Assembly (NCBI GenBank): GCA_029706075.1
Contig: JAINUG010000020.1
Location: 2,681,625-2,745,624 of the forward strand
Reading direction: 5' to 3'
Source: Aldrovandia affinis
Lineage: Eukaryota > Chordata > Actinopteri > Notacanthiformes > Halosauridae
Length of the DNA stretch: 64,000 bases
Shown: in pieces, positions 1 through 64,000 of the stretch
Position numbering within the stretch: the first letter of the stretch is position 1
Layout of the letters: every line of letters begins with the position of its first letter
Made by a program: the position numbers and the translations under genes
Notes under the pieces: model-generated
Told to the model about the DNA's origin: nothing
Database searches by the model: none
What the model saw: the letters and a program-made list of their open reading frames with translations, nothing else

Positions 1-1977
1 CAAGGTTACAATAACTAACAGTGTAAACACCCATACAACAGGTATACTTGGCACATAAGTTCTTTCACATTTTATTTTTCACAACTTTTTATGTTTTCCT
101 TAGTGAACTTAAAGACTGTCTGGAGGGTTCCTGACTCTTAACACTGTCCCTCTAACTAGGCCTACCCTCAGTGAGTCATGGGGTCAGCTACCACACCTTA
201 CCTTAAGACATTCTACGATCTCCCTCCGTAGCTGCATCAAGGTACTGCCTTTTCCCTGACTCTGTCTCAGGGCCTCCTATCAACTCCGTATTTCTTTGCC
301 AATATAGCCAGATTGTGGCATTTTCCATCACGAAACTCACAACAGGCTTCTGTCATGTTTAGGCAGTCCCTATAATTTTTCCTCTGACAACCCATTGTGT
401 GGAAATAAGGTACATAGTTCATTTCCTGAATGAAAAAGAACATTTCTGAGTAAAAGTAATTAATTCAAGACTTTAATATGAGGTACGATGGGTTTTGGCC
501 TTAGTGGGCTTATTGGGAACAACAATGGCCAATAGAAAATTAACCTCAATAACTTATTATAGAGTTAATGTAAAAGTGTAATATCTTTGTAATGAATGAA
601 ATACAATTTTTTTTACAACTTTATTCATGTTTTTTTATTGTTGGTAGTAAAACGTAAATAATTATTTTATGTTCAAGCCATGTTCAAGCCAACAGGCTTT
701 TCAATGACACCATTCCTTATAAGCTTCCTCATAATTTCAATTTCAATATCTTTTGTCTGAAACTGCTTGTAAAATGTTTTGATTTCATATGGTCATCAAC
801 AGTTTTTGTCCATTTTTGTTGTACTACTGCATCTATCTGTGAGACCACCATTCTGTCAGTGTCATGCTAGCACTGAATACTCAGAAGATCAATCAATGAA
901 CCACAAAATGGTGTTTTTAAATACCAAGCAAATCAATCATGTAAAGTATCATTGAATTAATTAATCTCTTAATTTTACAATTCTTATCAATACTCACCAA
1001 GTTTGGTTACGAAATTACAGAAAAATTGGTTCTTGGGAGGGCTCTAGAAGCAGGAAGGTTTTGAGGTGACTTAAAAAATGGTTGCTATGCAGTGGAAGCA
1101 CAAGGTCATGCATAACTCAAAAAGGAAACATTTGATTGACTCCAAATAAAAAGTAACATAACAATAACAGCACAATAACAACTGTATTTAGCAACAAAAT
1201 GAATGTTTCAGGTGACACAGAATATTTATTTTGTGTGCTTATCTTTCCATCCGCGATTGACACTTTATGGAGAAATGAAAACTGTACCGTTTTCAGTTGA
1301 CTAAGCCATTCTGACTGTGGGTCAAAACTGGGCCCCAGAATTGGGTCAAGGCGAGTCATAAGATTCATATACCGTATGACCTTCTCTGTATCATCTAATT
1401 ATTTTGTCGGTTAACATACTGTATATAAATGTATAGGTGGAAATTTCTCATTTTGTACTGTATACCTAGTCTTGATGCCAAACACTCTCTGAGCATCTGG
1501 TTTCCAGCATTGATCTCTGTTCAGTTTGCCTCCTACCTGTTTCTCATTTCATCCCTCCCCCTGACTTATACTTTCTGTTGTACCCCGGTAACATCTTTGA
1601 TCTCCCCACTACTAGCATCAGTCGATTGTGAATATAAAGATGTAAGATGCCTTTAACCCCTTTGTACGAGTGTGCTAGCTGGCTGTTAGCTGTTAGCCGT
1701 TAGCCAGCTAATATAAGTTGGCCAAGTATGCAAGGTTTGCTACTAGCTAGTTACACAGGCTGGTCAGTTTGCACACCCCGAGAATCTTGGCAGACTCATC
1801 TCACATCAGAATGTCAATCTGGTCAGGCTTATAGAACTGTGAAGCTACTGTATGCCCTCCATTTACATCGGGTGCCTTGGGAAGTTTTGACATTTGCTGG
1901 AAGTGACATTTGACTCAGCCCCTCTCCCACTCTCTCCCTCCCTTTTGCCCTCTCTCTCTCTCTCTCCCTCCCCCTCC

Positions 1978-2022
<45 letters not shown>

Positions 2023-2062
2023 CCCTCCCTCCCTCCCCTTCGGGCTCCTTCCCTCTCTGTAG
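1..2062. other. 5' flank or upstream intron of ampd2; no exon recognised
   Basis: This AT-rich stretch sits upstream of the first ampd2 exon I can support. I looked for a coding exon matching the variable N-terminus of AMP deaminase 2 and found none with both a plausible frame and splice sites. Its last 110 bases become a CT-rich microsatellite that doubles as the polypyrimidine tract of the next exon. It is probably a 5' intron, since the exon at 2063 opens with two bases of a split codon and therefore must be spliced to something upstream. Confidence 0.4.
1949..2040. repeat. (CT)n microsatellite at an ampd2 splice acceptor
   Basis: Almost pure CT dinucleotides interrupted by short C runs, ending about 20 bases before the acceptor AG at 2061-2062. 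The tract also creates long artificial Ser/Leu-rich reading frames on both strands, which are not genes. Confidence 0.9.
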
Positions 2063-15258
<13,196 letters not shown>

Positions 15259-52184: not shown

Positions 52185-52370
52185 CTTTTCTTTCCCAATG
52201 TTACAGGTATGATACGCAGATGCCTGCAATGATGTCTTTTGCCGTTTTACTGCACTGATCTTGTACGCTAACTTTGATTGTTCTCACCTTGTATTAATGC
52301 ACATCTTGTAAGTCGCTCTGGATAAGAGCGTCTGCTAAATGCTTAAAATGTAAAAATGTAAAAATGTAAC
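52185..52370 (+). repeat. SINE or L2-type 3' tail, copy 3
   Basis: A plus-strand copy of the unit also seen at 12096 and 29577. It runs from CCCAATGTTACAGGTATGAT to CTTGTAAGTCGCTCTGGATA and GCGTCTGCTAAATGC, followed by short (TGTAAAAA)n tail repeats. Confidence 0.75.
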
Positions 52371-59548: not shown

Positions 59549-59660
59549 ATTTTGGACTGTAGTTGCTATGCCAACATGACGTGCTCGCATTCCTGAGTGA
59601 GAAAACCCAGAAGAATGTGTCCGGGTGTACGGGTGATGTCATTTAGCTACGAATAAGCTG

Positions 59661-60045
59661 TACAGCTAAGTTAGCTGCCTTGCTACGAACATAATATATG
59701 AATTATAATATATAATTATATCATAATTATATAGCCAGCTAGCTACGGACATAACAGTATGCATTGTCTGTTCAGCTGTACAGCTAAGTTAGCTGCCTTG
59801 CTACGAACATAATATATGAATTATAATATATAATTATATTATAATTATATAGCCAGCTAGCTAACAGTATGCATTGTCTGTTCAGATGTACAGCTAAGTT
59901 CGCTGCCTTGCTACGAACATAATATATGAATTATAATATATAATTATATTCTAATTATATAGCCAGCTAGCTACGGACATAACAGTATGCATTGTCTGTT
60001 CAGATGTACAGCTAAGTTCGTTGCCTAGCTACGAATATAATATAT
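59661..60045. repeat. 118-bp tandem repeat, about 3.3 copies
   Basis: Units begin TACAGCTAAGTT at 59661, 59779, 59889 and 60007. Periods are 118, 110 and 118; the middle unit lacks an 8-base piece. Each unit contains a palindromic AT core (ATAATATATAATTATAT) and GCTAGC-rich edges. Confidence 0.9.
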
Positions 60046-60384
60046 GGATCGCCTGCTTAGATGGCTAGTGAAATACTTGCTAGTAAAATAAAAATCGCGT
60101 CGTCGGAGACAGATCACTACATCAGATAACCTTTATAATTTCCTTTTTGTATAGGCTACTGTGCTTATATTGTTAATTGTTTTAGATTTTACATTGTGTT
60201 AGTGATGCTAGTGAGAGAAAAAAAATGTTCGCTGGCCTGCCCCCGCTGGACACCTGCGATGATAACATCGCTGGCATCACTGTCCTGGACAACCTGTGAG
60301 AACTGAGAAAATATAATTGACCCTTTGCTAAACCACGCCCCCCTTAGTTATTTTTGCTAAGTCCGTCAAGCTTTCGGAGCCAGC

Positions 60385-60660
60385 ATGGCGCTACCGCTGT
60401 CGTTAACTGCTCTCCCTGGAGAAATTGTATCCAATTTTTGGAAAATAGACAAAGAGATTTCGATAGAACCAGACAGAAGAGCCCTACAGTATGCTTTCGA
60501 AGGTTATATCCAGGATATCACAATTACTCTGCAAAAATATTACACAAAAAAAATTAGGATAGAAGGGATAGCCTACAGATCACAAAGTAAAAGTGAATCA
60601 CCTGGCGATTGAGACAGAGGACAACGACATTAAGGAGCAACACTGTTCCTGTAAAGCTGG
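60385..60660 (+). pseudogene. First exon of a SWIM zinc-finger protein, frameshifted
   Basis: From the ATG at 60385 the product begins MALPLSLTALPGEIV and stays open to 60612. A second frame overlapping its end (about 60587-60660) continues as HKVKVNHLAIETEDNDIKEQ and then HCSCKAG, which is the first half (CxC) of a SWIM zinc finger, and stops at a good donor (GG then GTAGGT) at 60661. The frame change shows a small indel. In fish, proteins of this type continue with the rest of the SWIM finger and a YqaJ-like nuclease domain, and such proteins are encoded by ISL2EU-type transposons. No second exon was found before the opposing THAP exon 0.4 kb away. Family assignment is from memory and moderate. 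Confidence 0.5.
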
Positions 60661-61076
60661 GTAGGTCTTTATTCACTTTATTCACTATTACAATCATTAA
60701 AAAGCAAAAGCAGTAGGCCTATATAACGTTACATTCAGTAGTAAGTTAGCTAGCATTAGTCTGCTAATAACGACATTACTCTGGTTAGCTCCACAGGTTT
60801 CTGCGCCCATTGACAAAGTGCTGAAATAGTAATGATAGTAACATCTTAACGTTAGCAAGCTGGCTGGATCACGAATAACAAAGCTAACATTTAGTCTAAC
60901 TTTACCAACGTTGCAACCCAGAGCTGTATATCCAGACCATAGCCACGTTAGCGTCGCTGGCTAAGCTTGCTAGCGCCACGGATAGCTACGAACCTTACGA
61001 TAATTTAGGTTAACCAGCTAACATCTGATAACAACAGCATAACATTATTTTACGGTTGATAAGAGTAATTACTGAC

Positions 61077-61277
61077 CTTGGAGCAGACAAAGCTGTGCTT
61101 GTTGATCTTGGAGGTGTTCAACTGGGCATGAGGACATCCACATAGCTTTATACACAGTCTACACTTTTCAGGATTTGATTTAGGTTTTGTAAAAGGAAAA
61201 AAACGTATATCTCCTTCAAACCTCTCTGGGTAACGAGTGTCACTGTTACACGTGCCCCAGGCACAACGTTTAACCAT
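61077..61277 (-). pseudogene. First exon of a THAP-domain protein (degraded)
   Basis: From the ATG at 61277 the minus strand reads MVKRCAWGTCNSD, then FFPFTKPKSNPEKCRL and NTSKINKHSFVCSK, ending at a donor (AAG then GTCAGT). This is the N-terminal C2CH THAP DNA-binding domain. The C-x4-C pair and the third Cys are present, and the final His would be the first residues of the next exon. The invariant tryptophan of the RLW motif is Cys here (RLCIKL), which should abolish folding, so this is probably a decayed copy. THAP domains head several transposases (P element, Kolobok, ISL2EU) and domesticated genes. No downstream exon is recognised on the minus strand. Confidence 0.7.
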
Positions 61278-62043
61278 AATTTGCTAAAAATCCGCAAAAC
61301 CAGCTCGAAAATGAAGAAAAATTCTAATTTTTGCGTGAAAGTCAACGGAGGGCAGCAAAAGACTGTCGGACTCTCTGTCGGAGTATGTAAAACACGGCGC
61401 TGTGATTAGGGTGATCAGATGTCCCGCATTGCGCGGGACTGCACAGCATTTTCATGACTTTTCATGCGTCCCGCAAATTGAGAAGATGTCCCTCCTATTT
61501 CATTTTGATTGGCTCTAGTTTTCAAAGACGCGTTTCTAAAATCAGGCTTATCCAATGGCTGTGGAGAAAGCAGCAAGGGCTGTCATCACGGGGCTGTGTT
61601 TGCTGTCAATCAAACTGCAGCACACGTGGGGTGCTGGGGTCAAGGGGCCAAAAGTTTTTTTCATATATTAATTTAAATAATGTCACGAGACATGTCCCGG
61701 TCCAATTAAAAGATGAGTTGAAGTTGGTGTGGCCTTTCGTTCGGGGCTGGATCAGTCTTTTCAAAAGTGAAATTCTTCGAGACACGACCGGTACCGCTAA
61801 TTTAGTAAGATAGATTTCACTTTTTAACATGTTTAAATTGAAATAACTGCATACAAAAAAATATGTACATGTTCATGAATATGTAAGGAAGTATGTTTGA
61901 TTGTTTAAAGACTTATTTTGTTTTTATTTATATACGATAAACATGTTTTTCGGTTCGTTGCCTCAGGGCAACACTATGCGGTTAGCCCTCAATTTCTTAG
62001 CCAATGTTATGCGCCGGCGCAACAGAGCGCCGGCCCCACGAAA
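61278..62043. other. Non-coding, with a possible transposon end near 61409
   Basis: GGGTGATCAGATGTCCCGCA near 61409, with a GCGCGGGAC partner, looks like a short inverted motif at a transposon edge, but no matching right end was found. No gene recognised. Confidence 0.3.
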
Positions 62044-64000
62044 ACAGGGTTCCCGCGCTGGTCTTAAAAAGCCTTAAAGTCTAAAATCCAACAATCCGAT
62101 TTTTAAGGCCTAAAAAGGTCTTAAATTGTAGTTATTAGGTCTAAAAAATGAGGTGCTAGGTCTTAAAAGTGAGATTAGCTCTCTATTGTGTTAAAAATGT
62201 TTTGAGTGTCCTGCAAAGAAATCAGTCCTATCTATTTACACGGAAATTAATCAAGCTGGAACCAAAACAATGCAAATTCGCTGCCCCCGGGAGAAATTAT
62301 TGGCGAACGAAGCTACGTATCGTTCGAGTTGGTTGAACGTAGACAAGAGCTAGCTAGCTAACTACTCGTGTTTTGTTTTGAGTTTTCTCCCCGTGTGGTT
62401 TTCGCGTTTTCGGGATTTCTCGGGTAAACGCAGGCGGAGATTTCCGCATTCAAAGTGGGGCAGGACTAACCATTCTCCTTCCATTCTTTGGTCTGTAAAT
62501 CTGTCATTCATGGTCGTAAAACCAATCGTAAAATTGATAGTGTAGATAAGAAGTACCCATTCAAAGACGTTTTCTCCTGTTTCTAGGCAGACTTTGTCAT
62601 TCATCCTCGCAAAATCGCCTAAAAAAAGTTGCATCGCGTTTTTTAAAATAATTTCCTCATACCAAGGCCTTGGTGTGACAGAAACAGAAATCAAAAGTCT
62701 TGGTACACATTGTGTGTTGGCTGTGTGCAATAAAATACAAGAATATGATTTACGTTTTTGATAATACTGCTTATCAAATAATTACACTGAATCAAATGTA
62801 CTATAAAAAACCTTGGAGTTTTACTACCCTTGTCGCACAGTGTTGCCCTGAGGAAACAAACCAATATCTGGTTGGGGGGGGTGACACATTTTATGATTGA
62901 AATAAAGCCCCCGTCGAGACTCATGACCTCTGTATTTTTTAGGTCCTGGTTACGCCACTGGTTACGCCCTCGCCCCCCGAACAACAACTACGAACAAGAC
63001 AGTCGATTTGGAAAATGGAAACTACGACAAAAAAAAGGAGATGCAGCTACAACAAGGACTGGGAAACTAGTTATCCGTGGGTGAAGCCAGTTCAGGTTGA
63101 TGCTCAGAGAGTTTTTTGCGATCTTTGCAAGAGTTCTTTTTCAATTTCACATGGAGGAGAATACGACGTCAAAAGACACAGAGAATGCGAGACCCACAAG
63201 AAACGACATGCACAAAAAGAGACGTCCCAGTCTATGGAGGCATTCCTACTGAAGCCCAAAGATGATTGCCACTCTGACAAGGTAACAGCAGCTGAAATAA
63301 CCAGCGTTTACCATACAGTGCAACACTCCCAGTCATACAGGTCAAGTGACTGTGGTAACAAGCTAGCACCGACCATTTTTCCAGACTCGGAGATTGCAAA
63401 GAAAATGGCATGTGGTCGTACAAAAACAGCGTCCATAGTAACAAATGTGCTCGCACCTGTCTCCGTGGAGTTGTTTGAGAGAGTTAAACACGCCAGTGGT
63501 TCAACAACTTCCAAGTGACAAAATAGCCCACACGCCATTTTTTTCAGTGGCTTCAGATGCTTCAAATCATGGCACTACAAAACTCTTCCCACTGTCTTTG
63601 AGATATTGGACCCCAGAGTTGGGTTTGAAAAGCAAGATCCTTGACTTTTATGAGGATAGTGATGAGTCAGCTGCTACCATACACCGCCAGATTACGAGCA
63701 AGTTAGAAGAAAATGGCCTGAAACTTGACATGATTTCAGCATACACTGCCAACAATGCAAGTGTAAATTACGGGAAAAACAATTCCGTTTTCCAGAAGCT
63801 AAAAGCAGACAACAGTGGCATCATAAAGGCTAACTGTATGGCCCACATAGTGCACAACAGTGCAAAACATGCTGGAGACAGGTTGAACATCGACATTGAG
63901 TCCGTAGTGAACAAAATATTCAGTCACTTTTTATCATCTGCAAAACGTACAGAAGCATTGAAAGCAGTGTTCGCTGGCCATGGAAGAACAGTATCAGGTT
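62044..64000 (+). mobile_element. hAT-type transposon, right part beyond the window
   Basis: The probable left end is CAGGGTTCCCGCGCTGGTCT at 62044, followed by the GGTCTTAAAAAG-type repeats common in fish hAT elements, then about 0.9 kb of leader and a BED/hAT transposase gene. The right end and target duplication lie outside, so the boundary is inferred. Confidence 0.55.
63015..64000 (+). pseudogene. hAT transposase with BED zinc finger, frameshifted and truncated by the window
   Basis: The first frame (ATG 63015 to stop at 63516) carries a BED-type finger, CDLCKSSFS followed by KRHRECETHKKR (C-x2-C ... H-x5-H), which binds transposon ends. A frameshift at about 63470-63500 moves the reading to another frame. 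That frame continues open to the window end through VASDASNHGTTKLFPLSL (first catalytic Asp, codon 63556), AYTANNASVNYGKNNSVF and CMAHIVHNSAKHAG. In the second motif the usual catalytic Asp-Asn pair reads Asn-Asn (codon 63751). Both the frameshift and this substitution suggest an inactive copy. A domesticated gene is less likely because of the break. Confidence 0.82.

Follow-up and report, generated by a model that had tools for sequence, protein, structure and literature searches.

In this work, the two exons that face each other at 60385–61277 of the window (the whole stretch of DNA analysed, 64,000 nt) were found to be part of a repeat family that recurs in the window's own genome and has inverted repeats at its ends. 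This copy is almost certainly a non-autonomous, internally deleted form of an ISL2EU-like DNA transposon of the PHIS superfamily. Its long parent would have carried two opposed genes, one on the plus strand encoding a SWIM finger and a YqaJ nuclease, and one on the minus strand encoding a THAP domain and an HTH/DDE transposase. A single deletion at a 5-nt microhomology would have removed both catalytic parts and kept both ends together with the zinc-finger exons.

The facing exons and the ends of the element

In its own genome (1.22 Gb), the window corresponds to C1113:2681625-2745624. Exon 1 of the SWIM-YqaJ gene lies on the plus strand at 60385..60660 and ends at the donor GG|GTAGGT; its frame is broken. 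Exon 1 of the THAP-transposase gene runs on the minus strand from 61277 to 61077, is open over 67 codons and ends at the donor AAG|GTCAGT. The positions of two first exons facing each other within 0.9 kb, and the splice donor at the end of each, are as the earlier note on this DNA had described them. In a Pfam search, neither the SWIM exon nor the THAP exon of the window copy gave a match at E≤10, and the THAP exon of the long copy L017 matched PF05485 at 3e-5 (25.2 bits, cut-off 23.9). The comparison of the THAP exon with viral contigs gave 17 pattern matches and no relative, and that with solved structures gave one unrelated esterase only (E 0.38 and 0.43).

The THAP exon had at least 150 scored matches among 1,454 candidates in the window's own genome, and the SWIM exon at least 150 among 1,382, so the facing arrangement is not due to chance. 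Among the matches listed, 36 THAP matches have a SWIM match at most 20 kb away; 34 of these 36 pairs are facing and two are not, and the spacing of the facing pairs is 371–583 nt in 29 cases and 2.0–6.4 kb in five. This pairing took in all 150 THAP rows and 82 of the 150 SWIM rows. The 68 SWIM rows left out were tied at 87.9 bits, and five of them that were fetched (L029–L033) belong to a second class of short copies. Elsewhere in the window, an Rfam match to UnaL2, a LINE 3' end, was observed at 52296–52348 (60.2 bits), and several reading frames are present at about 9600–13700, which we take to resemble exons of an AMP deaminase gene.

The similarity of the window copy to the fetched loci begins within a few bases of 60315 and stops at 61407. 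The left terminal inverted repeat, GACCCTTTGCTAAACCACGCCCC, occupies 60319..60341 on the plus strand and follows the left copy of the target site AATT (60315..60318); its inverted partner lies past the end of the window, reaching 65973 on the window scale. In other short copies, the element continues for about 46 nt further to the right and closes with the inverted left end, and the terminal inverted repeats of the family are AATT-GACCCTTCGCTAAACCACGCCCC, about 23 bp long. The ends of the element begin with TGACCC or GACCC, not GG. The weak inverted similarity previously proposed as terminal repeats (TTTTTGCTAAGTCCGTCAAG and CTTTTGCTGCCCTCCGTTGA) lies inside the element on both sides; the real left end is at 60315–60341 and the right end is beyond the window.

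The earlier note had also called for a definition of the terminal repeats and of the target duplication, which is now provided by the matched inverted ends and by AATT, which stands before 80 of the 82 distinct termini of the loci that were fetched. These termini are exact matches to the end sequence save one C/T, with more degenerate ends uncounted. Three copies (L025, L026, and L032) are inserted at the identical position of another repeat, and the empty site of that repeat, with a single AATT, was found 654 + 669 times (at most 3 mismatches), with a backwards control of 0. Because of these termini and the empty site, we conclude that the target is AATT, partly or wholly duplicated; duplication of AT in A|AT|T and of the 4-bp AATT leave identical letters. 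The base 5' of AATT is C at 47, T at 23, G at 8, and A at 2 of the 80 termini, which points to a target preference beyond AATT. A tandem array at 59659–60046 (period 118, 3.4 copies) adjoins the left side of the element, and units like those of this array also lie next to L005 and L016, two of the short copies.

The right end of the window copy was split off by a later insertion. Foreign sequence, TAGGGTGATCAG, starts after 61406. In four kb of sequence taken from close to the end of the window onwards, the far end of the insertion, CTGGTCACCCTA, was located at 65925 on the window scale, where it is followed by a second copy of GCTGTGAT (65926–65933), the left copy of which stands at 61399..61406. 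The remaining right end of the element comes after this second copy and closes with GGGTCAATT at 65977 on the window scale. The exact 8-bp duplication on both sides means that 4,519 nt (plus strand, 61407..64000 and on to 65925 on the window scale) were inserted into the element. The length of the duplication and the ends suggest that the insertion is hAT-like. Its reading frames at 63015–63999 gave no transposase match against Pfam, and those within the window at 62943–63999 gave no convincing Pfam match.

The internal deletion and the short copies

When the window copy is compared with the long copy L017, similarity extends to element position 535 and resumes at 4288, with a five-base overlap, CCCAT. 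This microhomology marks the deletion junction at 60806..60810, at which 3,757 nt of the long form are missing. This junction falls within the second exon of each gene, leaving a few codons of both. On the plus strand, intron 1 of the SWIM gene (60661..60796, with the candidate sites GG|GTAGGT and CCACAG|) precedes the remaining start of exon 2 (60797..60810), which gives the last finger ligands, FCAH, and then a stop. In the THAP gene, on the minus strand, intron 1 (60821..61076, 256 nt) is followed by exon 2 as it is read here (60785..60820), which gives HFVN as in the long form and then GRRNLWS before a stop. It had been suggested that one internal deletion left only the two outer first exons, with no visible second exon. 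The single loss of 3,757 nt bears out the first part of this claim; the second part falls, as the starts of both second exons are present at 60797–60810 (plus strand) and 60820–60806 (minus strand).

The same junction was found in 38 of 41 aligned short copies. The three exceptions are L005, in which a further deletion crosses the junction, and L059 and L061, which have another junction; five copies that repeat loci already used (L009, L022, L028, L034, and the first copy in L035) do not enter the alignment. Genome-wide, the window-class junction occurs 53 + 61 = 114 times (at most 3 mismatches; control 0). A second class joins position 615 to 4263 and occurs 419 + 400 = 819 times (control 0), and a third junction, 703 to 4471, was present in all three copies fetched (L065–L067). 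There are three distinct junctions, and therefore at least three independent deletions of such elements were amplified. The short product is about 1.16 kb long, and the median divergence of the 41 short copies from their consensus is 1.5%. The idea of a collapsed two-gene element holds insofar as the window copy matches the long copies on both sides of the deletion; the collapse itself is ancestral and amplified, as the 114 junctions indicate, and not a local event.

As the simplest mechanism, we hypothesize that the gap left after excision of a long element was only partly refilled by copying and was then sealed at a short homology. The short product kept its inverted repeats, and it could then have been amplified in trans by the transposase of the long copies. 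Such abortive gap repair is established for derivatives of this kind, as in PIF/Harbinger-like elements, whose short copies are internal deletions of a longer element (PMC2213677, available portion). As far as that portion goes, the present short copies are similar in being simple internal deletions of a two-gene element that abortive gap repair could explain, and they differ in host, in transposon group and in keeping both zinc-finger exons at the ends. The short copies are ordinary in kind, being deletion derivatives of a two-gene transposon. There are more than a hundred of them for every long copy (114 + 819 junctions vs about six loci with the family's YqaJ exon).

It could be supposed that the remnants in the short copies still act. 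In this scenario, which is compatible with the main explanation, their THAP exons would encode a zinc-finger protein of 78 aa able to bind the element's termini and to repress transposition in the manner of KP, the 207-aa repressor from the P transposon of Drosophila (PMC7776569, in the part available). In the short-copy consensus, an in-phase join of THAP exons 1 and 2 gives an open frame of 78 aa that contains every zinc ligand. Moreover, the sum of all differences in THAP exon 1 across the 41 copies (33 synonymous vs 17.3 expected and 74 missense vs 65.7 expected, the expected counts being derived from the middle part of the element) gives a hint of constraint. However, the copies were mostly picked by similarity to the THAP protein, which biases them toward few missense changes, and changes seen in a single copy (8 at 63 sites for codon position 1, 11 at 62 for position 2, and 16 at 66 for position 3, with 70 at 405 sites in the middle part) do not make constraint clear. 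The sign of selection on the THAP exon is thus weak and biased. Furthermore, a position that is Trp in the three long copies is Cys in 24 of the 36 readable short copies, and at least 6 of the 41 short copies carry a frame shift or a stop in THAP exon 1. In the short-family consensus, 8 nt of SWIM exon 1 that are present in the three long and two second-class copies are missing, and this breaks the SWIM frame. KP, as described in the part of the source available, is likewise an internally deleted element that keeps the THAP part of its transposase gene, but it derives from an unrelated transposon and its 207 aa compare with at most 78 aa here. A repressor role of the short copies is therefore quite unlikely.

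The long copies and the transposon group

The earlier note had proposed that the genome be searched for long elements with the SWIM and THAP exons at opposite ends and with YqaJ and DDE domains inside. Three such copies were found, L017, L018, and L019, of about 4.9, 5.2, and 7.0 kb, respectively. All three have the exon order SWIM exons 1–3 (plus strand), DDE exon (minus), YqaJ exon (plus), THAP exon 2 (minus), and THAP exon 1 (minus). In the Pfam search, L018 matched DDE_Tnp_4 at 3.5e-40 and HTH_Tnp_4 at 1.4e-12, and L017 matched YqaJ (PF09588) at 1e-21. The presence of YqaJ and HTH/DDE between the SWIM and THAP exons supports the ISL2EU-type reading offered before. No intact copy was seen among the three, and hence no present source of transposase: L017 and L019 each have a broken DDE frame; in L018, SWIM exon 1 carries an insertion and the transposase frame contains a stop. 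The YqaJ exon gave 29 match rows genome-wide, six of which are loci with the family's own YqaJ exon (C1136, C1799 twice, C127, C1884, and C2052). Two other copies were set aside from further analysis: L020, a short copy interrupted by 2.8 kb of inserted sequence, and L021, of 2.6 kb.

In the available parts of two papers, ISL2EU elements are described as about 4,840 bp long, with a transposase combining DDE, HTH, and THAP, a second protein with YqaJ, an AT duplication in A|AT|T and ends that usually start with GG (PMC4482050; PMC9179366); their terminal repeats are given as 6–259 bp, again usually with a GG start (PMC4482050). The DDE, HTH, and THAP domains are present in the window's family (L018 and L017), with candidate splice sites that are out of phase, and the second protein is represented by the PF09588 match in L017. 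L017 and L018 are close to the length of an autonomous element and L019, at 7.0 kb, is longer; the terminal repeat of about 23 bp falls within the described range, and the target AT/AATT also agrees. Judged by domains, the content features of ISL2EU are present in the family. In comparison with these partial descriptions, the differences are the ends in TGACCC instead of GG, the SWIM finger in the YqaJ gene, and the swapped, interlocked catalytic exons.

The ends without GG could speak for a different PHIS group, that is PIF/Harbinger, Spy, Pangu, or Nuwa, and the assignment to ISL2EU rests on domain content and target site compared with published descriptions. On the other hand, YqaJ and THAP are both found here, as described for ISL2EU, and the available part of PMC4482050 names Myb/SANT partners for four other groups. 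A TWA duplication and a Myb/SANT partner, the features of PIF/Harbinger, contrast with the AATT site and the YqaJ partner of this family. Spy, described in the same part as lacking a duplication, inserts at AAATTT, whereas a duplication is seen at the AATT site here. Membership in one of these other groups has only a slight probability. That two unrelated host genes face each other by chance, for which the good splice donors and the open THAP frame at the locus might be cited, is next to impossible given the identical arrangement, ends and junction at many loci, and this candidate was ruled out by the repeat evidence of at least 150 matches for each exon and recurrent facing pairs.

The preferred reading therefore remains an ISL2EU-like element. 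The spread of ISL2EU in teleosts has been described (PMC9179366, part available); this distribution and the UnaL2 match in the window make a fish host likely. It has also been noted that non-autonomous copies may have been missed (PMC4482050, part available). The words 'SWIM', 'orientation', and 'opposite' are absent from the main texts of both papers, and none of the papers searched contains both 'SWIM domain' and 'YqaJ'; the family may already stand in Repbase, which is outside this comparison.

The interlocked exon order of the parents

At all four loci of the window's family that have both catalytic exons (C1136, C1799 twice, and C127), DDE is upstream of YqaJ on the opposite strand, and each of the two exons lies antisense inside the presumed intron of the other gene. 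At C1884 and C2052, no DDE match was found within 6 kb of YqaJ. At the other YqaJ loci with a DDE match within 6 kb (31–57% identity to the YqaJ query), DDE is downstream, tail to tail, in nine of nine cases. Besides the family and the tail-to-tail loci, 11 of the 29 YqaJ rows had no DDE match within 6 kb. In a distant relative, C343 (L064 2506-3792), a single open frame of 428 aa covers YqaJ and the second half of the SWIM finger, and therefore SWIM and YqaJ are one protein there. The DDE match of C343, known by its position, is downstream of SWIM-YqaJ on the other strand. In the window's family, unlike C343, the DDE exon separates SWIM from YqaJ.

All three long copies have a donor (CCAG|GTAAAG) following SWIM exon 3 and, ahead of YqaJ, an acceptor (GTGTGTGTAG|CTCCCA); both sites are in phase 0 by the frames of L017, which is consistent with splicing from SWIM to YqaJ across the DDE exon. 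With canonical splice sites, however, the phase of SWIM intron 1 is off by one nucleotide in L017. The obvious DDE acceptor does not share the phase of the THAP exon 2 donor in any of the three long copies. A guessed DDE acceptor was rejected, as the resulting frame runs into stops in all three. Splicing in the window's family is thus only partly resolved, the joins of SWIM to YqaJ and of THAP to DDE being putative.

For a rearranged ISL2EU parent, the arguments are about evenly balanced. In such a parent, the DDE exon would lie antisense between SWIM exon 3 and YqaJ, YqaJ would lie antisense between THAP exon 2 and DDE, and both genes would be spliced across each other. This order would have arisen from the tail-to-tail order by swapping the catalytic blocks with the strands unchanged. 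Coding exons of one gene continuing past the other at this locus had been named beforehand as refuting the collapsed-element reading. Such passing of coding exons is seen in the long parents, and there it explains how one deletion removed both catalytic parts.

The short copies show that single microhomology deletions can yield mobile units with zinc-finger exons only. Less usual than these short copies is the interlocked arrangement seen in their parents. If it is true, the transcripts of the two genes would be coupled, and any single internal deletion could remove both catalytic parts. If both genes are indeed spliced across each other, the family would be a natural case of opposed, overlapping genes that need co-expression for transposition.
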